Assembly: GCA_027449865.1 (NCBI GenBank)
Contig: DAIDKV010000161.1
Span: 1-64,000 of the forward strand
Direction: 5' to 3'
DNA length: 64,000 nucleotides
Source of the DNA: Planctomycetales bacterium
GTDB lineage: Bacteria > Planctomycetota > Planctomycetia > Isosphaerales > Isosphaeraceae
The position numbers and the translations under genes were made by a program. Shown here piece after piece: positions 48,428-64,000 of this stretch; the stretch's first letter is position 1, and each line of letters begins with the position of its first letter. Under the pieces are notes generated by a model. The model was not told the origin of the DNA, did no database searches, and was given only the letters and a program-made list of their open reading frames with translations.

Positions 48428-50341
48428 ATGAAGCGGACCTTCGCCTTGGTAATGCTACTGGCCTCGCTGGGGGCATTGATCAAGCTGGCGGCCCGTTCGG
48501 GCGATCCGACGGACCAGGTTCTCGCTCGGCCAGTCACCACGGTGTCAGCCGGCAAATCGTCGGCCGTGGACGGGCCGAGGCCGCTGGTCGATCGGTATCG
48601 GGACGCCTCGCCGAGGGTCCGTGAGATGGTCGCCCGGCTGGTCGAGCGTTTCGGCCGGAACGCCGAGGCCATCGATCGGACCGACGGAGAGCGCGGGCTC
48701 GTCCTGCTCGACCGGCTGGACATGGAGGCGTTGGTTCTCTACGAAAAGTATCCGGCCGACTTTAGACGGCTGCGCGAGATTCTAGGGACCGACGCCGCGG
48801 CTGACCTTCTCCTCCACTGGCGCGAGTACTTCGGCCTGAAGCGAGGCGACGAGACAGACCGTGGCATCCTGATCGCGGAACTGGCGGCGCTCTCACCCTC
48901 GCAGCGTCGGGCCGCGGCGCGATTTCCGGCGGCCCTCCCGCTGATCCTGGCCGAGCCTGATGGTGTCGTCGCCTTGATCGATCGGCTGAAGGACGATCGC
49001 CGAGCCCGGACTGATGCATTGACCATCCTGGGTTTCATCAGCCTCGAAAAAGGTGCCGCCGAACTGAGATCGGCGCTCCGCACTCTGGAGCACTTTGGAC
49101 CGTCGGCGCTGGAGGCTTTTCGCGGACATGGATTGGAGGGCTTCGCCCTGGTCTGCCTGTACGGGCCGATTCTGGAGGCGATGGGCGATGCGATGCCGCT
49201 CGACCAGGCCCTAATCGTGCTCGCTGTCAACGCCGACCACATCGACGCGATGCTCCAGACCCAGCGTCCCGAGGCCGTGGCGGGTCACCTGCGACATGTG
49301 GTGGCAGCCGGTTTGGCCGAGACTGTGGGTGGAAGTCCTCGAGGATTGCGGTTGGTGGTCGAGCAAGGGGAGCCTGGTGAGCAGGCCCTCCGACGCGCCG
49401 GTCCGGACGCCGCTGATGTCGTCTTCGGCGACTTCGTCGACGCAACCCTCCGCCGACAGGCGACACTCGCTCTGGCCGAGCACGGGCCGATGGCGCTGGC
49501 GATCCTCGATAAGTACTCGATCGATCCCGACTTCCGCGAGGTGCTACGTAAGTATGGCGCGGCGGCGATCCCGCCGATCGCCCGCGCGGACGCCGGGCCC
49601 GAGACGATCGCGTTCCTTCAGTCGAAGGACCGCCGATCGTTCCGCGAGGCGGTCGCGCTTTCTGCGCTCTCGATGGCCGGCGAGAACGGTCAGGCAACCA
49701 TCCGAACGATCCGCGAAGCCGGATTGGAGCGGGTGGTGAGTCTGGACGACGGATCACTTTCGTACTATCAGTTCCTCCCGCTTTACGACGTGATCCACCT
49801 GAGCAACGTGATGCGGCAGGGATACGCTCCGACCTCTAGCGAGCTAACCTGGGCGATGATCGACGGCTGTTTCGCGATCGCCGACGTGCTGAGCCTCACG
49901 GCGATGCAGCCGGAAGGAGCGTTGGCGGCGGAAGCAGCACGGTCCGAGGTGAAGGCAGCGGCGCGAGTCGGTGTCAGGACGGCTGTCGAGGGGGCGTCAA
50001 CGGCGACAGAGCGGATGGCCCGGTGGTGGGCCATTCGATCAGCGGGGGGCGTGTACCAGGTCCTGCGTCGAATGCCCGAGGCGCTCCCACGGCTGAGCCT
50101 CGGCCAGCTCTCGGCGATGGCCGGGCCGCTGTGCGAGCGTGCCGGGATGCGGCTGACGAGCTGGCGGCCCGTCCGATTCCTCAAGGACGGTGCCGAGGTC
50201 GTCTTCCGTATCCCTCCCGAGCGGGGCCTGAAATACCTCTCGGCACAGATGGTCCAGGCGGGCGTCGGGGTGGTCGGGTTCCAGAAGATGGAGGAGCACC
50301 TCCGGAGCCGTCGGCCGAATCCCTCGGCGGGAGGCGAGTGA
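48428..50341 (+). CDS. Membrane-anchored helical-repeat protein, family not recognised
   Basis: 637 aa from the ATG at 48428; upstream codons look non-coding. Residues 1-22 are a signal peptide or anchor (MKRTFALVMLLASLGALIKLA). The rest is a helical solenoid built from degenerate units of a G-x-x-A-L-x-x-L-x-x-(Y/F) type, such as HFGPSALEAFRGHGLEGFAL and EHGPMALAILDKYS. The unit recurs in the neighbour at 50895-51875 (QLGPEGLSAVRVYG). There are no catalytic motifs. Position and paralogy tie it to the GTPase cluster (to 55163). The function is unknown; a scaffold in that complex is the simplest reading. Confidence 0.7.
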   Translation: MKRTFALVMLLASLGALIKLAARSGDPTDQVLARPVTTVSAGKSSAVDGPRPLVDRYRDASPRVREMVARLVERFGRNAEAIDRTDGERGLVLLDRLDMEALVLYEKYPADFRRLREILGTDAAADLLLHWREYFGLKRGDETDRGILIAELAALSPSQRRAAARFPAALPLILAEPDGVVALIDRLKDDRRARTDALTILGFISLEKGAAELRSALRTLEHFGPSALEAFRGHGLEGFALVCLYGPILEAMGDAMPLDQALIVLAVNADHIDAMLQTQRPEAVAGHLRHVVAAGLAETVGGSPRGLRLVVEQGEPGEQALRRAGPDAADVVFGDFVDATLRRQATLALAEHGPMALAILDKYSIDPDFREVLRKYGAAAIPPIARADAGPETIAFLQSKDRRSFREAVALSALSMAGENGQATIRTIREAGLERVVSLDDGSLSYYQFLPLYDVIHLSNVMRQGYAPTSSELTWAMIDGCFAIADVLSLTAMQPEGALAAEAARSEVKAAARVGVRTAVEGASTATERMARWWAIRSAGGVYQVLRRMPEALPRLSLGQLSAMAGPLCERAGMRLTSWRPVRFLKDGAEVVFRIPPERGLKYLSAQMVQAGVGVVGFQKMEEHLRSRRPNPSAGGE

Positions 50342-50342
50342 A

Positions 50343-50765
50343 TCAGGCGGCCGGGTCGATCTGGGGATCGTACAGCGGCTCGCGGTCGTCAACTTTGGGG
50401 CGCCTCTTCCGCTTCCGAATAGCCCGGGCCGCGAGGCCGATGAACAGCCCGATCGTGAGGTGGATCGATAGAAGAAAGGCAAGCGCGAAACCGAAGGACT
50501 CTGTATCGCGCACGGGGTCGTACAGACCCAGGACGAGCACGCCGAGCCCGTTGTTCTCCCGACTGACGAGGTGATAGGCAAACCAGGCTGCCAGTCCGCT
50601 CAGAGCGCAGGCAGTCGCAATGGTCCAGGCGTGGGCCATCTCTGAGGCGGGCTGGGGAATCCGGGCGATATTGATGGGGAGAATGATCGCGGCGGAGAAG
50701 AGGATCGCCAGCATTCGGATCGGGGTCTTCGGGTTTCCGTCGGCGATCTTCGCGTTCGTATCCAT
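50343..50765 (-). CDS. Small three-helix membrane protein
   Basis: 140 aa from the ATG at 50765. Three hydrophobic helices (about 17-34, 47-66, 91-114) and a basic C-terminal tail (RKRKRRPKVDDREP) are visible. The gene lies between two plus-strand members of the cluster and ends one base after the stop at 50341. A convincing promoter (50814-50842) precedes it, which supports a real gene; the same frame is open far upstream, where it is only a shadow of the next gene. Family not recognised. Confidence 0.65.
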   Translation of the reverse strand: MDTNAKIADGNPKTPIRMLAILFSAAIILPINIARIPQPASEMAHAWTIATACALSGLAAWFAYHLVSRENNGLGVLVLGLYDPVRDTESFGFALAFLLSIHLTIGLFIGLAARAIRKRKRRPKVDDREPLYDPQIDPAA

Positions 50766-50813
50766 CGGGCGAATCCCGGTCGGAAGAGATGGCTGGCGAT
50801 CGGCCTTCCCGGA

Positions 50814-50842
50814 ACTATATCGGAATGCAGCCGACGAATCAA
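50814..50842 (-). promoter_or_regulatory. Sigma-70-like promoter of the small membrane protein gene
   Basis: On the minus strand TTGATT is followed after exactly 17 bp by TATAGT, a good match to TTGACA-17-TATAAT. The expected transcript start is about 40 bp before the ATG at 50765. Confidence 0.6.
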
Positions 50843-50894
50843 TGAGTGGGATGAATGGATACGGTCTAGGGCGGGGAAACGAGGGCCAGGACAA

Positions 50895-51875
50895 ATGAAC
50901 GGGAAACTCCGAGGTCGGACCGTCGGGACCGTCGCGGTGGCGATGCTGGCGGTCGCGACACTGACCGCGCCGGCGCTGGCGGGGAAGGTCGCCTGGCTCG
51001 ACGACCTGATGCAGCAGGTCATCGCCGAGGCCAGAGCGGGCGGCAAGAACGTCGCCCGCGAGATCAGCGGCGATGGCGCCAGCGCGGGGGGGCGCCGGCT
51101 CTTCCCCAGGCTCAACGCCAACGAGACACTCGAACGACTCGCCCGCCAGGGCGACGATCTCACCCTCGCTGGCCGAGAGGCCGAGCGACCGGCCGAGGCC
51201 CTGCTGGAGTCGCGGTTCTCCCGTCTGATGCAGCGCGACCCGCAGGCCATTCAGACCTTTTCGGGGCTTCCGATCGCGGAGAAGCGGTTGGTGGTCGAGC
51301 TGGGCGAGACGGCGCAAAAGCTGGCGCGACGGTATCCGGAGAACGCCGAGGCGATGGTCCGACAACTCGGGCCTGAGGGCCTTTCGGCTGTCCGGGTCTA
51401 CGGAGACGACGTCGCCGAGGTACTGGCGAGGGAAGGTCCGGAGAGTCTCGGCGTTTTGCGCAGGACGGGTCGGGCCGGCTGGTCGTTCTTCACGGGAACC
51501 GTCCTGCCGCACAAAAAGAAACTGGCCGCCGCTGGCGTGCTTGCCGCATTCCTGGCTGATCCCGAGAAGTTCATCGATTACGCGGGCCAGGCAACCGACT
51601 ACGCCGTTCGCGAGTTCGGCCGGGCGGGAATCCAACTGACTGCGGCGGTCGCCGAGGGCGCGGCTCGGGGAATGGAGAGCACCATCGGCGAGGCGCTCGC
51701 GGCTTATGGGCTGAACGTGCCGGTCCTGCGGTATTTCGGGATGGCCGCGGCCGGAATGGTCGTTCTGATCTCGTTCCTGGTGGTGGTCGGGCTGCCGGTG
51801 CGATGGATGTTCCGGCCGATCGTAGGACCGCTCCGGTGGGCGAATTCACTACGGAAGGCCGGGCGGATCGCCTGA
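50895..51875 (+). CDS. Secreted/membrane helical-repeat protein, paralogue of the gene at 48428
   Basis: 326 aa. Signal peptide at 1-29 (ALAGK). The central part (75-200) contains the same repeat logic as the 48428 product, for example RRYPENAEAMVRQLGPEGLSAVRVYGDDVAEVLAREGPESLG and a matching GxEALxxL unit. A hydrophobic stretch (205-222) and a C-terminal membrane helix (281-301) follow, with a short basic tail inside. The topology suggests an anchored protein with an extracytoplasmic helical domain. It lies 202 bp upstream of the GTPase gene, in the same direction. No catalytic motif. Confidence 0.7.
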   Translation: MNGKLRGRTVGTVAVAMLAVATLTAPALAGKVAWLDDLMQQVIAEARAGGKNVAREISGDGASAGGRRLFPRLNANETLERLARQGDDLTLAGREAERPAEALLESRFSRLMQRDPQAIQTFSGLPIAEKRLVVELGETAQKLARRYPENAEAMVRQLGPEGLSAVRVYGDDVAEVLAREGPESLGVLRRTGRAGWSFFTGTVLPHKKKLAAAGVLAAFLADPEKFIDYAGQATDYAVREFGRAGIQLTAAVAEGAARGMESTIGEALAAYGLNVPVLRYFGMAAAGMVVLISFLVVVGLPVRWMFRPIVGPLRWANSLRKAGRIA

Positions 51876-52077
51876 TTGACCCACGGTTAAGGAGGACGAA
51901 CGCTCGGAGATTCAACAGGCACTCAGGTCGTCGGGGATCGACAAAGACTTCACGGACGCGAAAAATGCCGTGAGATGGGTTCGATCCCGGCCGGCTCCCT
52001 GACGATCTTAGAAGGGACCGATCCGGACGCGGGCGGCGGCCGGACGAGGAGGCGGGGTCACTTTTCGGGGCGACAGG

Positions 52078-54438
52078 ATGAGCAATCGCCGGACAAATCC
52101 ACTGGATGACCTGGAGGCACGACTTTCACGTCCGCTGAAGGTCGCGCTGTTCGGCCACCGAAACGTCGGCAAAACGACCCTGCTGGCGATGTTCTATCGA
52201 CAGGCGTCGAGCGGCCAGGTTCCTGGTCTTCGACTCGCCGCCGCCGATCCCCGCACCGCGGAATACCTCGCCGAAAAAATCGCCCAGATCGAATCCGGCC
52301 AGCCAATGGCAGGCTCGCTCGCCGAGACCGAACTGAACCTCAGGCTCTATCACGGACCGGCCCGATTCAACCTGATCGTCAAGGATTACCAGGGCGAGCA
52401 CGTCACACTCGGCTCGGACGAACCTATTCACGCGTTCTTCGACGGCTGTGACGCCGTCTTCCTCTGCCTCGACCCGGACGGTCCCTCCGATCCCGTCGAG
52501 CGACGGCGACGTCAGCAGGAGATCGAAAACCTGCTGGAGCGGTACATCGAGCGATCCGATGACGCTCGGGCCGATCGTCCGGTGGCGCTGCTCCTGACCA
52601 AGTTCGACCGCGTGATGGAGCAGGGGACTTCGGACCTCGATTCGGAGGCGGATCCCGAGATTTCCGACTCGATGGTCGAGCGGATTGTCGACCATCATTA
52701 CGGGATGACACGACACGCCCTGGCGGCACACGCGCCCGAGGGGGCGATCTTCGGTGTGAGCTCGTTCGGACCGGGCGCCCAGGGGAATCGTCCGCCCTCG
52801 ATTCTACGACCGATCGGACTGGAAGGTCCGCTCTCCTGGCTCGCCGAACAACTGGAGTCGCGCGATCGCGCGGCGATGGTGGCCGCCTGGGAGCGCGGCT
52901 CACGCGACATCGGGCGGCTAGGTCGGGTGGTCGGGGCTTACGAGCGGCGGTATCCGCGATCAAATCGGTCGTACGAGTTCCGGGACGGACTCACGGCGAT
53001 GATCCGTCGTCGACGACGCGGACGACTCTATCGGCTGGCCGGCGGGATCGTCCTCCTCGCAGGGTTGGCGGCCGGCTACGACGCCATCGGATTCCGGCAA
53101 GCGACTGCCTTCGAGCACTCGCCCGAGGCGGCCGCGCCGGCGATCGCTCGGCGATGGTCCGACCTGATGGAATGGCACCCGTCCCTGGGGATCTTCTGGC
53201 CAGGCCTCGAGCGCCAGGCCCGGCTCAAGAAGGCTGAATGGCAGGTCAAGGCCGCGGGAGTGCAGGTCGCCAACGGAACCGCCGCCCCCGACCTGCCAAA
53301 GCGTCTCGACAGCCTGAAGGACCAGTCGCCGCGTCTTGCACCGGCGATCCGAGAGGTCGAGCAGGCGCAGCAACGCGCCCGCCACGATCGCCGCTGGAAA
53401 GAGGTCGAGGGCGAGGCAAGGTCGCTGGCCTCGGTCGACGACCCCACCACCGGACTGGCCGCCATCGATGGCTTTCTTCGCGAGTTCCCCGACAGCTCGA
53501 AACGCATCGATGCCCTCTCGATCGCCCAGGAACTGAAGCAGGCCCTGAACGCTCGTCGATTCGCCCAGGATCAGCAGTTCGTCGACGACCTGGTACGCTC
53601 CGAGGCGATGCCTGGTATGTCGCTGGAAGATCTGATCGAACGCGCCCGCCAGTTCCTCACCGATCATCCCGAGAGTCCGGCGCTTGATGCCGTCAAGGCG
53701 CGGCTGGATGACTACCTCCGCCGACTCGACGAGCAGGATATCGCGAAGGCTCGCGATTACTCGCGGCAATATCCGTCACGGTTCGCGGCCCGCATGGAGC
53801 GCTACCAGGATTATCTGAAGGCGCATCAAACAGGGGGACGCTTTCTAAGCGAGGCGATCGAGGCACGTGACCGGATTCTCGGAGAATGGGACATCTACGC
53901 CTATCGCCAGGCCTTCGATCATCTGGCCGCCCACCCGGATGACATCGCCGAGGTCGCCCGGCGACTTCGCGACTACCAGCGCGATCATCCGGACGGCCGG
54001 TTCGCCTCCGTCACGAAAAAATATCTCGACTGGTGGGAAAAGGTTTCCGTGCCGGGACAGTACAGGATCACTTTGCGCCGAGGCGAAGTCGAGCCGACAG
54101 TCGGCAAGTACCTCTCGGGCGACGGTCCCGACCTGGGCGTCGTGATCGAAGTTGCGGGAACGACGTATGGGCCCTCGCCGGTGATTCGCGACACGAGGCG
54201 ACCCATCTGGGATTATGCGTATCCGCAGCCGATCACCTGGAAGGTGGGCGATCCCATCACAATCCGGCTCGTCGACTATGACTGGACAGCCACCGACGTG
54301 TACGTCCTGACCAGCCGACCCGGCGACCCACTGGCGATTCGGCTCCTCTCGGGGACGATCAAGCCGTCGAAGGGAGGAAAGACCACGCTCGTCTTCGCCT
54401 CGGATTTCGCGATGCCAGATCTGTCACCGCCGGAGTAA
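52078..54438 (+). CDS. Membrane-anchored TRAFAC-like GTPase with helical repeat and C2-like domain
   Basis: 786 aa. Residues 18-275 are a P-loop GTPase: G1 GHRNVGKT at 26-33, switch II DYQGE at 103-107 (D-x-x-G), G4 TKFD at 174-177 and a probable G5 VSSFG at 227-231. The DxxGE switch and the layout resemble the DO-GTPase families found in computational surveys. After a basic patch comes a membrane helix (318-335). Residues 345-650 are helical and BamD/TPR-like (YRQAFDHLAAHPDDIAEVARRLRDYQRDHP). The last 125 residues form a C2-like beta sandwich (VVIEVAGTTYGPS, then RRPIWDYAYP and IRLVDYDW). It lies just before a GAP1-like gene. Function unknown; inferred as the core of a membrane GTPase system. 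Confidence 0.8.
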   Translation: MSNRRTNPLDDLEARLSRPLKVALFGHRNVGKTTLLAMFYRQASSGQVPGLRLAAADPRTAEYLAEKIAQIESGQPMAGSLAETELNLRLYHGPARFNLIVKDYQGEHVTLGSDEPIHAFFDGCDAVFLCLDPDGPSDPVERRRRQQEIENLLERYIERSDDARADRPVALLLTKFDRVMEQGTSDLDSEADPEISDSMVERIVDHHYGMTRHALAAHAPEGAIFGVSSFGPGAQGNRPPSILRPIGLEGPLSWLAEQLESRDRAAMVAAWERGSRDIGRLGRVVGAYERRYPRSNRSYEFRDGLTAMIRRRRRGRLYRLAGGIVLLAGLAAGYDAIGFRQATAFEHSPEAAAPAIARRWSDLMEWHPSLGIFWPGLERQARLKKAEWQVKAAGVQVANGTAAPDLPKRLDSLKDQSPRLAPAIREVEQAQQRARHDRRWKEVEGEARSLASVDDPTTGLAAIDGFLREFPDSSKRIDALSIAQELKQALNARRFAQDQQFVDDLVRSEAMPGMSLEDLIERARQFLTDHPESPALDAVKARLDDYLRRLDEQDIAKARDYSRQYPSRFAARMERYQDYLKAHQTGGRFLSEAIEARDRILGEWDIYAYRQAFDHLAAHPDDIAEVARRLRDYQRDHPDGRFASVTKKYLDWWEKVSVPGQYRITLRRGEVEPTVGKYLSGDGPDLGVVIEVAGTTYGPSPVIRDTRRPIWDYAYPQPITWKVGDPITIRLVDYDWTATDVYVLTSRPGDPLAIRLLSGTIKPSKGGKTTLVFASDFAMPDLSPPE

Positions 54439-54479
54439 GGGAATCGGCTCCCGGATCCGCCGATCACGGAGACGCCTCA

Positions 54480-55163
54480 ATGATCGAACAGGCCGTCTAC
54501 GGGAGTTTCCCGTTCTGGAACCGCGGCTACGCAGTGCTCTCGCGATCGTCGGGCTGCCGGCCTGATTGGCTGGCCGCCCTGAAGCAGGCCGCTCAGCGAT
54601 ACGGCGAGCGGCCCCCGGGTGTCGCCGAGGCCCAGGGAATGTTCGCCCTAAGAATCGAGAGAGGCCCCTGGATGATCGTCGGTGTGGCGCCACAGGGAGA
54701 GGATGACGCCGGACGTCCCGGTGCGCTGGCCTTCCATGCGCTCTTTGTTGGGTCGTGGAGCTACCTCAGAGCCGGCGCCGATCCGTTTTCCTTTGCCGGC
54801 CTCCATCGGCGTGAATGGAGCCCTGACGACCTGGAGGCCACACTTCCATCCCCGTCCCTGGACGTTCGAGCCTCCGCCGAGGATTCGGACGAGGGTTCGT
54901 CGGAGACGATTGCTCGGGCCATCACGGCTGGGCGTCGGGTCGTTGTTCCGTCCGCCGGACCCATCGACGCGCTCGCCCGGGCCGTCTGGAAACGGCTCCC
55001 GCTTCGCGTCCGACTCCGAGCCTCGGTCGCCACCTGGGCTTTCGACAATGCCAATCGCTTCAATCTGGTCGCGATGCCCCGGCTCTCCGCGGCCGGTCGC
55101 GTTTCCTCGGAAATTGTCCTCGGCGCGGATCTCGGCGGGACCCAACGGCCGGTTCCCCTCTGA
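54480..55163 (+). CDS. GTPase-associated protein resembling the GAP1 N-terminal domain
   Basis: 227 aa, 41 bp after the GTPase gene. The opening MIEQAVYGSFPFWNRGYAVLS (YGS, then RGY-L-S) is the pattern of the GAP1 N-terminal family, which in other bacteria is encoded next to DO-GTPases. A beta-rich middle part follows (MFALRIERGPWMIVGVAPQGEDDAGRPG, FHALFVG, WSYLRAGADPF), then a helix with LRVRLRASVATWAFDNANRFNLVAMPRL. There is no signal peptide, so it should be cytosolic. It is shorter than full GAP1 proteins: only the first domain is present. Assignment by pattern only. Confidence 0.6.
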   Translation: MIEQAVYGSFPFWNRGYAVLSRSSGCRPDWLAALKQAAQRYGERPPGVAEAQGMFALRIERGPWMIVGVAPQGEDDAGRPGALAFHALFVGSWSYLRAGADPFSFAGLHRREWSPDDLEATLPSPSLDVRASAEDSDEGSSETIARAITAGRRVVVPSAGPIDALARAVWKRLPLRVRLRASVATWAFDNANRFNLVAMPRLSAAGRVSSEIVLGADLGGTQRPVPL

Positions 55164-55289: not shown

Positions 55290-56069
55290 TTGCCCGACCG
55301 CAAGTGGAATAATCAGGACCGACACTGGAGCCGTCATGCCCTGGGTTATGAGGAAGTTTTCCTCGACCCCTACGGGCCCGGCGTGGAAAACCCGCTCTGG
55401 GCGGCCCTGGACGCAATCCCCGATCCCCAGCGCAAGACCGTCGCCGACCTTGGCTGCGGGACGGGCCCGCTTTTGTCACGGCTTGTCGATCCTTTTGGTC
55501 GAGTTCTGGCCCTTGATTTCGCCGAGGGGATGCTCGACCGGGCTCGTGCCCGCCTCGGATCCAGGGCTTCCGCACGCGTCGAGTTTTTGAACCGGCCGAT
55601 GCACGAGCTCGACGATCTGGCCGGACAGCTCGATGTCGCCGTCGCGGTCAACTCGCTGGTGATGCCCGACGTCCGACTGATCGACCGAACCCTGCGCGCT
55701 ATTCGATCAGCGCTCCGACCGGGCGGGGTATTTCTGGCGATCGTGCCGTCGATCGATGCCCTGGCCTACCACGCGATGCTTCTGGCGGACCGGGCGCTCG
55801 AGCGAGGGATGAGCCCCCGAGCCGCCGAGCGTCTGGCCGCCTCGCTGATCGAGCGTCGATACTACGACTTCGCCTTCGGGCGGTTCCGGTTCCAGGGCCT
55901 CAGCCAGAAGTTCTGGCAACCGTTCGAGGTCAAGTACCGCCTGGCCCGCGCGGGGTTTAACTCGGTCGAAATGGCGAAGGTTCTCTATCCCTGGGACGAT
56001 GCGCTCGCCGGTTCCGAAGAGCTCGCCGGATTTCCCCGAAGCTGGGACTGGTTCTTTCGCGCAACCTGA
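55290..56069 (+). CDS. Class I SAM-dependent methyltransferase
   Basis: 259 aa from a TTG at 55290 (no in-frame ATG or GTG near; GGGG upstream). Methyltransferase motif I is VADLGCGTGPLLS at residues 51-63, followed by LALDFAEGML (acidic motif II) and LRPGGVFLAIVPS. Substrate not evident; the family includes small-molecule and quinone methyltransferases. Its stop overlaps the next start (TGATG). The catalytic core is intact. Confidence 0.82.
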   Translation: MPDRKWNNQDRHWSRHALGYEEVFLDPYGPGVENPLWAALDAIPDPQRKTVADLGCGTGPLLSRLVDPFGRVLALDFAEGMLDRARARLGSRASARVEFLNRPMHELDDLAGQLDVAVAVNSLVMPDVRLIDRTLRAIRSALRPGGVFLAIVPSIDALAYHAMLLADRALERGMSPRAAERLAASLIERRYYDFAFGRFRFQGLSQKFWQPFEVKYRLARAGFNSVEMAKVLYPWDDALAGSEELAGFPRSWDWFFRAT

Positions 56070-58746: not shown

Positions 58747-59523
58747 TCAGGTCCCGAACTCGGGCCGGCGGGTGGCGAGTTGTGACTGGAGCCGCTGAAT
58801 GATCGACGAGTGCATCTGAGAGACCCGCGACTCGCTCAGGTCGAGCGTGGCGCCAATCTCTTTCATGGTCAGCTCTTCATAATAATACAGGATAATAATA
58901 AGGCGTTCGTTCCGGCTCAGGCCCTTGGTGACCATGCGCATCAGGTCCTTGCGCTGGAGCCGGCGGGTGGGATCTTCGCCCTTTTTGTCTTCGAGGATGT
59001 CGATTTCGCGGACGTCCTTGTAGCTGTCGGTCTCGTACCACTTCTTGTTGAGGCTGATCAGACCGACGGCGTTGGCATCCATGGCCATCTTCTCATATTC
59101 TTCCATGGGCAGGCCCATGTGTTCAGCCAGTTCGACATCGGTGGGCGGTCGGCCGTGGCGGGCCTCAAGTTCCTTGCGCGCTTCCTCCATTTTAGTGGCC
59201 TTGGAGCGGACCAGTCGGGGAACCCAGTCCATGGTCCGAAGCTCGTCGAGCATGGCACCGCGGATACGGGGAACGCAATAGGTCTCGAACTTCACGCCCC
59301 GGGTCAGGTCGAAGGCATCGATGGCGTCCATCAGGCCGAAGACCCCGGCGGAGATCAGGTCGTCGAGGTCGACCCCCTCGGGGAGGCGCTGCCAGATGCG
59401 TTCGGCATTGTACTTGACCAGGGGCAAGTAGCGTTCGACCAGTTGGTTGCGCAGTTCCGTGGTGGGGTGTTCCTTGAACTCCCGCCAGAGTTCGGTTACA
59501 TCCACATCCACCTTGGTTGACAT
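58747..59523 (-). CDS. fliA: RNA polymerase sigma-28 / FliA-type sigma factor
   Basis: 258 aa from the ATG at 59523, which follows GGAGGTCAGG. Regions 2 to 4 of a group 3 sigma factor are complete: YNAERIWQRLPEGVDLDDLISAG, FDLTRGVKFETYCVPRIRGAMLDELR (the FliA/WhiG signature), a region 3 from MEEARKELEARHGRPPTD and region 4 YYYEELTMKEIGATLDLSESRVSQMHSSI. It directs late flagellar genes in flagellated bacteria. It is the last gene of the flhA-flhF-flhG-fliA block. No flgM-like anti-sigma gene is in the window. Confidence 0.94.
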   Translation of the reverse strand: MSTKVDVDVTELWREFKEHPTTELRNQLVERYLPLVKYNAERIWQRLPEGVDLDDLISAGVFGLMDAIDAFDLTRGVKFETYCVPRIRGAMLDELRTMDWVPRLVRSKATKMEEARKELEARHGRPPTDVELAEHMGLPMEEYEKMAMDANAVGLISLNKKWYETDSYKDVREIDILEDKKGEDPTRRLQRKDLMRMVTKGLSRNERLIIILYYYEELTMKEIGATLDLSESRVSQMHSSIIQRLQSQLATRRPEFGT

Positions 59524-59969
59524 CCTGACCTCCGTGTCGGCTGCGCGAGGGGTCGCACATCCTGTGCTCCGGGCCACGACGGCGCCCGCTCCCGGAGGGC
59601 GATCGCCGGCGCCGTGTCACGCATCGCAGAGTCTCGGTCGCGTCCGGTCGGCGGGATCTCGTCCCGTTCCGGCCAAGATGGCGACCGTCCCTTCTCCCCT
59701 CGCCGTCCTAGGAACTCCCACCCCGTCTAGTATCGACTCGTCCGCCTGATCGGCTTGAGTGATACCATCGCAACGACCCAAAAAACCCGCCTTCGCGTCG
59801 TAAGCCGCGGCCGTCTCGGCCGCCATCGCGACAACATTGTCGAGCGGGCATCCCTGCCCGCGCTGGATTCGCCTCGGCGTTGAAACCAACGACGGGCGGA
59901 GACCTGGCTCCAATTCGGCCTGATCTGGCGTCTTTCATCGGCTCCATCCTCCCGAAAACTGGAATAAGA
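59524..59969. other. 446-bp gap between flhG and fliA
   Basis: No supported gene. Minus-strand frames of up to 140 codons exist, but none has a ribosome site plus a recognisable motif. It probably holds a fliA promoter; I see no clear -35/-10 pair. Confidence 0.35.
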
Positions 59970-60920
59970 TCAACCGGTCGCGACCATTCCGAGGGCCCAT
60001 CGTGTGGCGAGGCCGGTAAAGAACCCCGGCCGTCGGCCGCGTGGCTGGGCGCGGGCGTCTTCGCGAGTGAGGGCACGGGCGAGCCGCCGGACACCGCGCG
60101 AGGCGACCCCGTTGGGATGTGCCAGAACAAAGGGGACTCGGGCGCGAACGGCCTGGCCGACGCAGGGGTCGGATCGGATCGCGCCAGAACCCATCGGTGA
60201 GACCACCACGCCGAGGAACTGCCGGCTCGTCGTGACGAACAGGTCGAGGACCTCGGCGGCCTCGGCGGAAGTTCTTGCCTGGTTCACCACGACCCTTATC
60301 CGGGGTGGGGCGGTCAGGCGTCGAAAGCGGGCGGTTGCCGCGTGGGCATCGGCCAGTGAAGTTGGCTCGGGCGTGGTGACCACCACCGCGGTCTCGGCGG
60401 CCGTCGCCAGCCGGACAGCGCCTGGGCCGAGGCCGGAGCCTGCGTCCACCAGCAAAAAGTCCGAGTCGGCCTCCAGTTCGCCCAGTTCGTCGACCAGGAG
60501 GGCCGGTCCGCCGTCGAGCGCCTCGGGGCCGGTCCGGATCGCGTGCGCGCCGGGGAGGATTCGGATTCCGCCCGGGCCTTCCATCACAGCCTCGGCGAGG
60601 GAGCAACGCCCGGCGAGCACATCGCCCAGGTCATTCCGGGGTGAAAGGCCGCAGAGCAGGTCGAGATTCGCCAGGCCGATGTCGGCATCGACCACCAGCA
60701 CGCGATGGCCCAGCTCGCCCAGCGCGATCGCCAGGTTAAGCACCAGGTTTGAAGTACCGACGCCCCCCTTGCCGCTGGTGAACAGCAGCGACCGCGCCAG
60801 CCGGGTCGAGGACGCCGAGGCGGGGAGCCCGGTCTGGGGCCTCGACTCGGTCGTTGTGAGGCTGCTCACGGCTCGGCTCGCCGAGACGAGCTGCCGGAGT
60901 CGATCTGCCTGGTCGGACAT
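59970..60920 (-). CDS. flhG: FlhG/YlxH-like MinD-family ATPase with altered P-loop
   Basis: 316 aa from the ATG at 60920 (GGGATCGAGGAGATCGGC upstream), chosen over a GTG that overlaps the flhF stop. The deviant Walker motif reads SGKGGVGTSN: the N-terminal signature Lys51 is kept, but the usual catalytic Lys before Ser is Thr56. VVDADIGLANLDLLCGL (Walker A' region) and LLVDAGSGLG (Walker B) are otherwise typical. FlhG controls flagellar number and place with FlhF. The C-terminus is Arg-rich. The order flhF-flhG matches other flagellar operons. Confidence 0.88.
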   Translation of the reverse strand: MSDQADRLRQLVSASRAVSSLTTTESRPQTGLPASASSTRLARSLLFTSGKGGVGTSNLVLNLAIALGELGHRVLVVDADIGLANLDLLCGLSPRNDLGDVLAGRCSLAEAVMEGPGGIRILPGAHAIRTGPEALDGGPALLVDELGELEADSDFLLVDAGSGLGPGAVRLATAAETAVVVTTPEPTSLADAHAATARFRRLTAPPRIRVVVNQARTSAEAAEVLDLFVTTSRQFLGVVVSPMGSGAIRSDPCVGQAVRARVPFVLAHPNGVASRGVRRLARALTREDARAQPRGRRPGFFTGLATRWALGMVATG

Positions 60921-60976
60921 GCCGATCTCCTCGATCCCTCGGAAACGATGGGCTGCGGCGAGCGCCGCGGGTCCGA

Positions 60977-62089
60977 TCACGCCAGGTCTTCCTGATTGAG
61001 GATCAGGCGGGCCAGCCGCATCCTGTCGGCGGGCTCAATGTCGTCCGGGACCGCCTGGCCGGTCGTCAGGTAGCTGACCGGTCGGCTCGACATCCCCAGC
61101 ACGCCGAGGATGCCGCCGAGGCTATCGGCCTCGTCGAGCTTGGTCAAAATCAGTCGATCGACCTGCACGGCCGCGAATCGGTCGACGGCCGCCTTCAAGC
61201 TCCGTTGACCCGCCACTGCGCTCAGGACCAGATGGATCTCATCGGGTCTCGCCTGTTGAAGAAACCCGGCCAGTTCCCGGATCTTCACCTCGTCACGCGG
61301 GCTCCGGCCAGCGGTGTCGATGAAGACCAGGTCGACGGTCCCCAACTCATCGAGTGCGGAGGGCATCTCGGACGGATCGTTCACAACGGCGAGCGGCAGG
61401 TCGATGATCTCGGCGTAGGTCCGAAGCTGCTCAACAGCCGCGATCCGATACGTATCGACGGTGATGAGCCCGACGCGGGCCCCGTGGGCCAGCTTGAAGT
61501 TGGCGGCCAGCTTGGCGACGGTGGTCGTCTTTCCGACGCCGGTCGGACCAACCAGCGCCACGATCCGACGGACGCCGACTGCCGGCGCGATCGGGGGCGC
61601 CACGGGAATGCACTGGGCGACCGCGTCGACCAGCGCCGCTCGGATGGCCTCGCCGTCGCCGAACTGGTCGGGCTCAAGCCCCTCGGCGATGTGACGGATC
61701 AGCCGTCGCGTAAGGACCTCGGGAACATCCGCCTCGATCAGTTGCGAGTAAACCGGGACCAGCTCGGCCGGGACGTCGGGGAGCAGGTGGTCGATCCTTC
61801 CCTGACGGCTGAGTGTCTCGACCATTGTGTGCAGCCGCGAGAGTTCGTCGCCGATCCGAGGGGTCGGCGTTACGCCGTGAGCCATGAAACCTGGGGAGGT
61901 CGTGCCGGCGGTCGCAGCCGGCATCCGATCCGTGGCCGTGACGAGCACCTCGGCGCGGGCCCCGAGACCAAACAGGCGACGACGACGGACCTCGCGCGCC
62001 GCCAGGATCACGGCGTCGCCGCCGAGGTCCCGACGCACTCGAGAGAGGGCGTCCTTCATCGTCCTGGCGCGGTAGGTTCTCGGCTCCAT
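60977..62089 (-). CDS. flhF: Flagellar biosynthesis GTPase FlhF
   Basis: 370 aa from the ATG at 62089 (GAAGG upstream). SRP-family GTPase: P-loop LVGPTGVGKTTTVAKLA, DTYRIAAVEQLRTYA, FIDTAGRSPRDE and TKLDEADSLGG, the FlhF/Ffh/FtsY signature. A basic N-terminal segment (about 1-90) precedes the NG domain. FlhF recruits the first flagellar building blocks to their site and is stimulated by FlhG. It sits between flhA and flhG on the minus strand. Confidence 0.94.
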   Translation of the reverse strand: MEPRTYRARTMKDALSRVRRDLGGDAVILAAREVRRRRLFGLGARAEVLVTATDRMPAATAGTTSPGFMAHGVTPTPRIGDELSRLHTMVETLSRQGRIDHLLPDVPAELVPVYSQLIEADVPEVLTRRLIRHIAEGLEPDQFGDGEAIRAALVDAVAQCIPVAPPIAPAVGVRRIVALVGPTGVGKTTTVAKLAANFKLAHGARVGLITVDTYRIAAVEQLRTYAEIIDLPLAVVNDPSEMPSALDELGTVDLVFIDTAGRSPRDEVKIRELAGFLQQARPDEIHLVLSAVAGQRSLKAAVDRFAAVQVDRLILTKLDEADSLGGILGVLGMSSRPVSYLTTGQAVPDDIEPADRMRLARLILNQEDLA

Positions 62090-62198
62090 TCCGGACCTTC
62101 CTTTGACGGACAATCCTGTCCCGGCGGCGCACGCTCCCCGGGTTGTCGCGCGGGCGAGGCCCGCCGACGGCAGTGAATGCCTGTGGGCGAGGCCCACC

Positions 62199-64000
62199 TT
62201 ACGGGTTCATCGAATCGACGAGCGAAGTGGTATAAGTGGTGATCGGATCCTCTTCCTCCTCGACCACACTGCCGAGGACCTCGACCGGCGTATCGCGTGG
62301 GATCTCACGCTGGCTGAGGACGACCAGCCGGGGCAGGTCAGTCCGAGTGAGATCCTTCAGTACGGCACGGGCCGCGGGCGAGGTGAGGATCACCGGCGGA
62401 TACCCGTTCTCAATCAGCGTTCCGACGGCGGCGGCCGCCGCCTGGACGATGCTCCGGGCGGTCTCGTCACCGAGGACCTCGGCGGGCCGGGTCTCGGCCT
62501 GACTGCCCGCCGCGGCGAGGCGGTCGTCAAGGTCGTCGGCCAGCGTTACGGCGCGAAGCCGTCCGTCCGGGCCTCGATACTTCTCGGCGATCTGCCGGGC
62601 GAGGCTCCGGCGCACCTGTTCGGTCAATGATTCGATGTCCTTGGTTCGACCGGCGTGCGAGGCAAGCGATTCAAGAATCGTCTCCAGATCGCGGATGCTC
62701 ACCCGCTCTCGGAGCAGGTTTTGAAGGATGCGCTGCAACTCGCCGGCGCGGAGCAGGCTGGGGACGACCTCGCCGACCAGGGTTGGTGCCGTGGCGCGGA
62801 CCCGTTCAAGCAGCCGCTCCACCTGCTCCCGTGTGAGTAGCTCGGCAGCGTGGTCGGCAACGATTTCGCCGAAGTGGCCCGCGACGACCGCTGCGGCATC
62901 GAGGACGCGACATCCGGCGAGTTCGGCGACCTCGCGGCCCTCGGCGTGAATCCAGACCGCGGGCTGGCCGGTGAGCGGGTCAACTCCGTCTCGGCCGTCG
63001 GGTCGCGTGACCAGTCCGGCGGGCGGCACGGCCAGCAATCGACCGGCGTAGGCAATCCCCTGACCGACCTGCGTTCCCCGGATTTTCACCCGGTACTCGT
63101 TCGGCGGCAAGCCGATCGAGTCGTGGATTCGGACCTGCGGGACGATCAGTCCAAGCTCGCGGGCCACCCGCTGCCGGACGGACTTCAAGCGGCCGAGCAG
63201 ATCACCGCCGCGTGAGGGATCCGCCAGTCCGATCAGGCGGAAGCCGATCTCCAGTTCCAGCGGATCGACGTGCAGCAGATCTTCCATCCGGTCCGAAGAC
63301 GCCTCAACCGGCTCGCCCTCAACCCGGGTCGAAACCATCGCGGCGAGGCGGCTTCGCGGCGTGGCCGTGGGACGAGGTTCGTCGGCGGCCGGAGCGGGTT
63401 CCTCGCTCTCATCGACTCTTCTACCGCCCAGCACGGCCGCGCCGATGGCGAGGCCGCCGCCCAGGGCCAGCAGCGGGATCTTCGGCAGCGGGGTCATCGC
63501 GAGCAGGGCCAGAAACGCCGCCGCGGCTCCCAGCACGCCCGGACGCGAGAACATCTGTTCGAGGACGTCGCGGTTCAGGTCGGTCGAGGACGACGACCGC
63601 GTCACTATGATGCCCGAGGCCAGCGAGATCAGGAAGGCCGGAACCTGGCTGACGAGGCCGTCGCCGATCGTTAGCTTGGTGAAGACGTCGACCGCGTCGC
63701 CGAGGCTCATCCCGTGGTTGACCACGCCGAGGATCAGGCCGCCGGCGATGTTCACCAGCAGGATAACCACGCCCGCCACGGCGTCGCCGCGGACGAACTT
63801 GCCGGCCCCGTCCATCGCGCCGAAGAAGTCGGCCTGACGATAGACCTGGTCGCGTCGGCGGTGAGCCTCGTGCTGGTCGATCAGGCCGGCGTGCAGGTCG
63901 GCGTCGATCGCCATCTGCCGGCCGGGCAGGCCGTCGAGCATGAACCGAGCGGCGACCTCGCTGATGCGCGTCGCTCCACGCGTGATCACCACGAACTGGA
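62199..64000 (-). CDS. flhA: Flagellar export apparatus protein FlhA, N-terminus beyond the window
   Basis: 600 codons are visible of about 700; the first ~100 residues are beyond the right edge. The visible part opens with QFVVITRGATRISEVAARF, DGLPGRQMAIDADLHAGLID and the FHIPEP-family loop, then two to three membrane helices (VAGVVILLVNIAGGLILGVV, LVSQVPAFLISLASGIIV, AAAFLALLAMTPLPKIPLLALGGGLAIGAAVL), and the large cytosolic domain (LPPNEYRVKIRGTQVG, HAAELLTREQVERLLE). FlhA forms the gate of the flagellar type III secretion export apparatus. It is upstream of flhF in the same direction. Confidence 0.96.
   Translation of the reverse strand, partial: QFVVITRGATRISEVAARFMLDGLPGRQMAIDADLHAGLIDQHEAHRRRDQVYRQADFFGAMDGAGKFVRGDAVAGVVILLVNIAGGLILGVVNHGMSLGDAVDVFTKLTIGDGLVSQVPAFLISLASGIIVTRSSSSTDLNRDVLEQMFSRPGVLGAAAAFLALLAMTPLPKIPLLALGGGLAIGAAVLGGRRVDESEEPAPAADEPRPTATPRSRLAAMVSTRVEGEPVEASSDRMEDLLHVDPLELEIGFRLIGLADPSRGGDLLGRLKSVRQRVARELGLIVPQVRIHDSIGLPPNEYRVKIRGTQVGQGIAYAGRLLAVPPAGLVTRPDGRDGVDPLTGQPAVWIHAEGREVAELAGCRVLDAAAVVAGHFGEIVADHAAELLTREQVERLLERVRATAPTLVGEVVPSLLRAGELQRILQNLLRERVSIRDLETILESLASHAGRTKDIESLTEQVRRSLARQIAEKYRGPDGRLRAVTLADDLDDRLAAAGSQAETRPAEVLGDETARSIVQAAAAAVGTLIENGYPPVILTSPAARAVLKDLTRTDLPRLVVLSQREIPRDTPVEVLGSVVEEEEDPITTYTTSLVDSMNP

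Follow-up and report, generated by a model that had tools for sequence, protein, structure and literature searches.

A core DO-GTPase/GAP1-N2-type gene set of Isosphaerales with a predicted membrane-anchored GTPase and a predicted longin-fold partner

Introduction

Bacterial systems that combine a DO-GTPase with a GAP1 protein were described by Kaur, Burroughs, Iyer and Aravind in 2020 and were proposed to be conflict systems (PMC7159879). Planctomycete members, membrane association, extracellular domains and GTPases that carry other domains in addition to a C-terminal membrane helix are all reported in that paper; its main text makes no mention of Isosphaera, Singulisphaera, Gemmata, C2, longin, DENN or roadblock, and the name DO-GTPase was found in no other paper of the open-access library searched. 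Here we analyze a locus of this kind in a stretch of 64,000 nucleotides (the window) from a Planctomycetales bacterium of the family Isosphaeraceae (assembly GCA_027449865.1, contig DAIDKV010000161.1). Its four plus-strand genes, labeled A, C, D and E, are a core, vertically inherited gene set of the order Isosphaerales. We propose, with a probability of about 0.5, that they encode a constitutive GTPase switch of the inner membrane that is inactivated by E, acting as a longin-type GTPase-activating protein (GAP), and that works with periplasmic repeat proteins in envelope organization.

The locus shares with the described DO-GTPase/GAP1-N2 systems a DO-GTPase2 domain, a GAP1-N2-type gene just downstream, membrane association and domains past the membrane helix. 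Unlike them, it has no zinc ribbons, FNIII protein, GAP1-C or variable effector, its GAP1-M region is degenerate, and it is universal and vertical with four constant partners, whereas the known systems are mobile and patchy. A sequence-only reading of the window had suggested an undescribed system; this applies to the particular version, as the GTPase/GAP1 kind itself has been known since 2020. New are the grouping of four genes, their core vertical status in Isosphaerales, the recognition of a C2 domain in D and the prediction of a longin fold with an arginine finger. Another bacterial switch with a small-GTPase fold and a GAP of related fold is MglA-MglB of Myxococcus, a Ras-like GTPase with a roadblock GAP. 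MglA is soluble, whereas D is predicted to be membrane-anchored with periplasmic TPR-like repeats and a C2 domain, and the predicted topology of E is that of a longin and not of a roadblock protein.

The open reading frames and gene order given by the sequence-only reading were confirmed for these four genes, with E starting 41 bp past D:

48428..50341, plus strand: gene A, 637 aa, from the open reading frame list; helical repeats and an N-terminal anchor at about residues 4-22
50895..51875, plus strand: gene C, 326 aa; signal-like N-terminus, helical domain, C-terminal membrane helix at residues 281-299 and a short basic tail
52078..54438, plus strand: gene D, 786 aa; DO-GTPase2, membrane helix, TPR-like repeats and C2 domain
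52129..52872, plus strand: D GTPase domain, residues 18-265; Arf/Arl/Rag-like fold with G1 GHRNVGKT, DYQGE and TKFD
53023..53085, plus strand: D membrane helix, probable and single, residues 316-336; from hydropathy, positive side N-terminal
53125..54048, plus strand: D TPR/BamD-like helical repeats, residues 350-657; from YfiO matches and model helices, predicted periplasmic
54049..54426, plus strand: D C2 domain, residues 658-783; from Foldseek, Pfam C2 and conserved columns
54480..55163, plus strand: gene E, 227 aa; short-form GAP1-N2-type protein, predicted longin fold with a degenerate GAP1-M-like remainder and no membrane helix
54714..54716, plus strand: codon of E Arg79 (D-D-x-G-R79-P); candidate arginine finger in the beta4-beta5 loop

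Distribution and inheritance

The gene set was traced in 45 Isosphaerales genomes from 21 genera, with Singulisphaera, Paludisphaera, Aquisphaera and Tautonia among the named relatives. D occurs in every genome and every genus (45/45 and 21/21), nearly always at full length, C and A each in 43/45 and E in 42/45, usually as one copy per genome. The missing cases are mostly incomplete or contaminated genomes, and each of the four genes is present in 26/26 genomes of good quality (at least 90% complete and at most 5% contaminated). In a maximum-likelihood tree of D, 11 of 11 genus groups are clades. This near-universal presence, together with the agreement between the D tree and the genera, identifies the set as part of the vertically inherited core of the order. 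Beyond the order, class-wide samples yielded full-length D only from a single family (f3), and there from some of the genomes; the f3 member at locus L029 is named Gemmataceae. Three records titled Candidatus Kuenenia stuttgartiensis (L023, L024, L027) hold an Isosphaerales-type D; the matching genomes fall in the family of the window, and the titles are probably wrong.

The inheritance pattern bears directly on the idea that the locus is an anti-phage or abortive conflict system of the DO-GTPase/GAP1-N2 type, with C and A or the membrane part as effector. D and E do belong to the families concerned, and the published interpretation of these families is one of conflict (PMC7159879). The set is, however, universal and vertical in the order and carries no variable effector, FNIII or zinc-ribbon part; no FNIII component was found among the scanned neighboring proteins, the best PADLOC match reached only 12.9 bits and did not identify a system, and neither the combined N, M and C domains nor the mobility of GAP1-N2 conflict systems were found at the locus.

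Moreover, separate and patchy systems with effectors exist in the same genomes. A GAP1-N2 profile search found canonical ones in 28/45 genomes of the order, a count that includes a few marginal E matches. The genome of the window itself encodes a canonical GAP1 protein with GAP1-M and a GAP1-N2 domain scoring 96 bits (L096, 8036-10354, contig C192) and a weakly DO-GTPase2-like protein of 19.9 bits (L097, 9162-10541, contig C31), and genome G038 carries a canonical DO-GTPase1/GAP1-N1 system with a GAAD-calcineurin effector (L099, 5137-12352). A third patchy pair joins a zinc-ribbon-like DO-GTPase of about 300 aa to a short GAP1-N2 protein of about 220 aa (L098, 8199-9769; L101, 3668-5947). We therefore consider a conflict function of A-C-D-E quite unlikely, and the defense role that the sequence-only reading had allowed for does not fit single-copy, vertically inherited genes without variable effectors.

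Gene linkage

In the order, D is directly preceded by C in 35/45 genomes (median gap 239 bp) and followed on its 3' side by E in 27/45 (80 bp), and A stands 5' of C in 26/45 (197 bp); neighboring members are all on the same strand. Broken blocks keep pieces of the arrangement, with A-C together in genus g18 and in genome G023 and D-E together in g18. Similar operons recur in distant planctomycetes. Genome G239, from another planctomycete family, has an operon of overlapping genes (L103) in which a first protein of 724 aa combines A-like repeats with a C-like terminal membrane helix, followed by a GTPase of 638 aa with DO-GTPase2, membrane helix and C2-like end and by an E-like protein. A second copy of a similar operon is found in G012 (L126), an A-C-D copy stands at a contig end in G025 (L127), and in G106 an A-C-D group is accompanied by a gene whose resemblance to E is doubtful (L128). 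That the four proteins function jointly is best supported by these independent recurrences.

Two further genes stand within or beside the block:

50343..50762, minus strand: small gene B, membrane protein between A and C; excluded from the set
55290..56069, plus strand: class I S-adenosylmethionine (SAM) methyltransferase 3' of E; linked gene of uncertain membership

The sequence-only reading had counted B, as a small membrane protein with its own promoter, among five genes of the system. A promoter-like site (9/12) is indeed present, and linkage of the other four is kept across the order. B itself is a lineage-specific insertion found in 2/45 genomes (this one and one congener) and was left out of the set on this ground. 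The methyltransferase, whose best match among solved structures is a weak one to a phosphatidylethanolamine N-methyltransferase, lies near D in 16/43 loci and beside a relocated E in two further genomes (L081, L082).

At 58747-63992 the window also holds a WhiG/FliA-type sigma factor, a MinD/FlhG-type ATPase, FlhF and FlhA. The same gene order (fliA/whiG, flhG, flhF, flhA) beside the set in four more loci could point to a flagellar or motility function; the flagellar cluster is, however, near only 5/43 D loci, whereas the four-gene set is universal, and such a function appears very improbable.

Protein D, a predicted membrane-anchored GTPase

D scores 45.8 bits against Pfam DO-GTPase2 (PF19993; cut-off 27), and all members of a set of 47 homologues match the profile, which bears out its earlier assignment as a DO-GTPase. 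The motifs GHRNVGKT (G1), DYQGE and TKFD are present as first read, residues D103-E107, T174 and D177 are invariant across the 47 homologues, and the conserved Walker B-region Glu of DO-GTPases corresponds to the invariant E107 of DYQGE. In the AlphaFold model built from the 47 sequences (mean predicted local distance difference test, pLDDT, 84.6), the nearest solved folds of the GTPase domain are of the Arf/Arl/Rag type (VIA-align Z 15.7-14), led by an Arl2-type GTPase (15.7) and an Asgard RagA-like GTPase (15.0); the rows for D are dominated by this domain, so that its helical part was barely tested by the comparison.

The model contains a long helix (residues 296-346) enclosing a hydrophobic segment, and a single Ala/Gly-rich hydrophobic helix at about residues 316-336 is present in 47/47 members, preceded by an Arg/Lys cluster with a mean of 7.3 K+R per 15 residues. 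On account of these basic residues, D is predicted to cross the membrane once, with the GTPase in the cytoplasm and the repeats and C2 domain in the periplasm. The repeats match BamD/YfiO (YfiO) in 20/47 members (best E 2.4e-7) and appear as helices in the model. The C-terminal domain, modeled with a pLDDT near 90, matched many C2 chains in Foldseek, including those of Itch, cPLA2, E-Syt2 (extended synaptotagmin) and dysferlin (E about 1e-4, probability 1.00), and Pfam C2 was found in 10/47 members (best E 0.009). Hydropathy, the model and the C2 matches together agree with the earlier description of a single chain running from GTPase through membrane helix and helical repeat to a C2-like end.

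Protein E, a GAP1-N2-type protein with a predicted longin fold

The opening of E carries the YGS..RGY pattern noted by the sequence-only reading, from which E had been taken for a GAP1 protein. Among 32 E homologues, 21 match Pfam GAP1-N2 (PF20013) at E<0.1, some exceed its cut-off of 24 bits (27.4 and 27.5 bits), and hhalign of the E family against canonical GAP1-N2 gave a probability of 94% and an E-value of 9.8e-8 over 183 columns; judged by these profiles, E is a diverged GAP1-N2 protein. It ends after a degenerate M region, GAP1-M being matched in 4/32 homologues (best E 0.0014). About half of the E proteins are longer, continuing into a membrane helix and then into a different domain of some 200 residues at the C-terminus; the E of the window is of the short form. 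NCBIfam and PADLOC scans gave nothing informative for A, C, E or the GTPase, and a PDB sequence search with the profiles of A, C, D and E gave no useful match.

The model of E (pLDDT 90.7; predicted template modeling score, pTM, 0.88) shows by DSSP the order beta1-beta2-alpha1-beta3-beta4-beta5-alpha2-alpha3, which is the longin topology. Its best VIA-align matches were TagF (Z 9.4 over 180 residues) and a Lokiarchaeal (Asgard) longin (Z 9.0); DENND1 with Rab35, C9orf72-SMCR8, Lst4, FLCN/FNIP2, GATOR1 chains, Sec22b and Ykt6 were further matched by Foldseek and VIA-align.

Across E and canonical GAP1-N2 sequences, only Gly16 and Arg79 are invariant. Arg79, kept in all of 38 such proteins, lies between strands 64-74 and 80-90, in the beta4-beta5 loop of the model. 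This invariance was found before it was compared with the published position of the arginine finger of longin/DENN GAPs, which is likewise between beta4 and beta5 (2026 preprint, PMC12803157); SMCR8 Arg147 in the active site of ARF1 provides an experimental precedent (PMC8213707). Arg79 is thus predicted to be a candidate arginine finger, and the E-like proteins of G239 and G012 retain the R-P pair in a comparable motif (GRDQLDRP and GRDADDRP). With longin-domain GAPs such as C9orf72-SMCR8, FLCN-FNIP2, GATOR1 and DENN GAPs (e.g., Avl9), E has in common the predicted longin fold, the invariant beta4-beta5 Arg and an Arf/Rag-like partner GTPase. It differs from them in being bacterial and in having no detectable sequence similarity, and its GAP activity is a prediction.

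Longin/DENN folds also include exchange factors (GEFs), such as DENND1 for Rab35, and TagF, which represses type VI secretion through Fha binding. The best fold matches of E include DENND1A/B and TagF, and the Ser, Asp and Arg residues of the D-x-x-G-R motif of TagF are needed for its function and for Fha binding (PMC5995506). E could consequently be an exchange factor or scaffold for D, which we regard as rather unlikely, given that an Arg between beta4 and beta5 is the published hallmark separating DENN GAPs from DENN GEFs (PMC12803157).

The resemblance to TagF also raises the question of whether D-E is a remote cousin of the TssM-TagF module of type VI secretion systems (T6SS), in which a membrane NTPase with a periplasmic beta-domain is followed by a longin-like cytoplasmic regulator. 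TagF (L110-L124) has a predicted longin-like fold in common with GAP1-N2 and is the best fold match of E, the invariant D-x-x-G-R motif of both is in register by hhalign, and tagF was found directly 3' of tssM in 14/15 T6SS loci of environmental plasmids, a biased count, since a TagF match was the ground for choosing nine of them. The E-TagF profile comparison, however, was not significant (E 0.31-0.88; 8/150 column shuffles reached an equal score), nor was that of D with TssM (E 0.0022, in the G4 region only), and IcmF_C was found in 1/149 class genomes. Sequence homology of D and E to TssM and TagF is not supported by these comparisons. None of the other T6SS genes belong to the set, and TagF acts through Fha; altogether, the module makes an attractive analogy, but kinship with it seems unlikely.

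Proteins A and C

By hydropathy, A is anchored at its N-terminus, and C begins with a signal-like segment and carries a membrane helix near its C-terminus, in keeping with the earlier view of two anchored repeat proteins. No Pfam match over the cut-off was found for A. The claim that A and C are homologous fared less well: direct comparison was negative (BLASTP E 0.13; hhalign probability 1.6%), and plain paralogy was rejected. The A and C profiles do converge on a single stretch of an intermediate protein, from G176 (L125), with E-values of 6e-11 and 2e-7, which suggests that A and C share a repeat segment at most. Other planctomycete families hold a wider group of C-like repeat proteins that end in membrane helices and have no DO-GTPase neighbor (L125, L129-L134).

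Proposed mechanism

We hypothesize that D acts as a GTP/GDP switch at the inner membrane, with its Arf/Rag-like DO-GTPase domain in the cytoplasm and, after a single membrane crossing, its TPR-like repeats and C2 domain presented in the periplasm. E, with its predicted longin fold, would bind the GTPase domain in the cytoplasm and most likely speed GTP hydrolysis, Arg79 serving as an arginine finger beside the invariant Glu107 of D, which we take to stand where Ras has Gln61. C and A would be anchored periplasmic helical proteins that associate with the repeat-C2 arm of D, and the GTP/GDP state could be passed across the membrane so that a periplasmic complex is assembled or released. Family assignments, gene linkage, distribution and vertical inheritance are shown by the data, and folds and topology come from models; the GAP direction, the formation of the complex and the cellular role are what we infer. 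Envelope organization is preferred to defense in view of the universality of the set and its lack of effectors; a part in membrane remodeling, also raised by the sequence-only reading, is possible. A planctomycete version tied to the membrane and to extracytoplasmic repeat proteins, as first envisaged, agrees with the sequences and models, and both the profile-level similarity to DO-GTPase and GAP1 families and the conserved neighborhood that it implied were found.

Several observations weigh against this proposal. E alone scores 18.9 bits against GAP1-N2, under the cut-off, and its assignment as a GAP1 protein is marginal when judged by its own sequence. Most of its longin/DENN matches lie at Z 7-8 and were flagged by the tool as possibly accidental, so that the placement in the longin superfamily draws on the consistency of the match list. 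The same fold includes GEFs, and E could thus activate D instead of inactivating it. E lies away from D in about one third of genomes, in some of them far apart. The helix of D is only moderately hydrophobic (Kyte-Doolittle values 1.0-2.1), and for this reason its topology is treated as a prediction. Of the five aspartates that usually bind Ca in C2 domains, the domain of D has three at well conserved positions (D685, D733 and D735), and D682 and D740 are not conserved. C2 domains need not bind Ca, the five Ca-ligand aspartates being found only in the Ca-binding members.

Implications

Our results suggest that one DO-GTPase/GAP1 lineage has been fixed as a core, vertically inherited component of the envelope in Isosphaerales. 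Planctomycetes are noted for their elaborate internal membranes. It is possible, though we put it forward tentatively, that the set is a housekeeping trans-envelope machine made from parts typical of eukaryotic membrane traffic, namely an Arf/Rag-like GTPase, a longin-type GAP with its finger and a C2 domain, and that GAP1-N2 proteins, perhaps with TagF, form a bacterial branch of longin GAPs. The fold prediction offers the whole GAP1-N2 family a concrete mechanism, that of a longin-type GAP with one invariant arginine. If this is true, longin-type GAPs, known from eukaryotes, would extend to bacteria, GAP1-N2 proteins would be genuine GTPase-activating proteins, and some DO-GTPase systems would belong to core cell biology and not to immunity.

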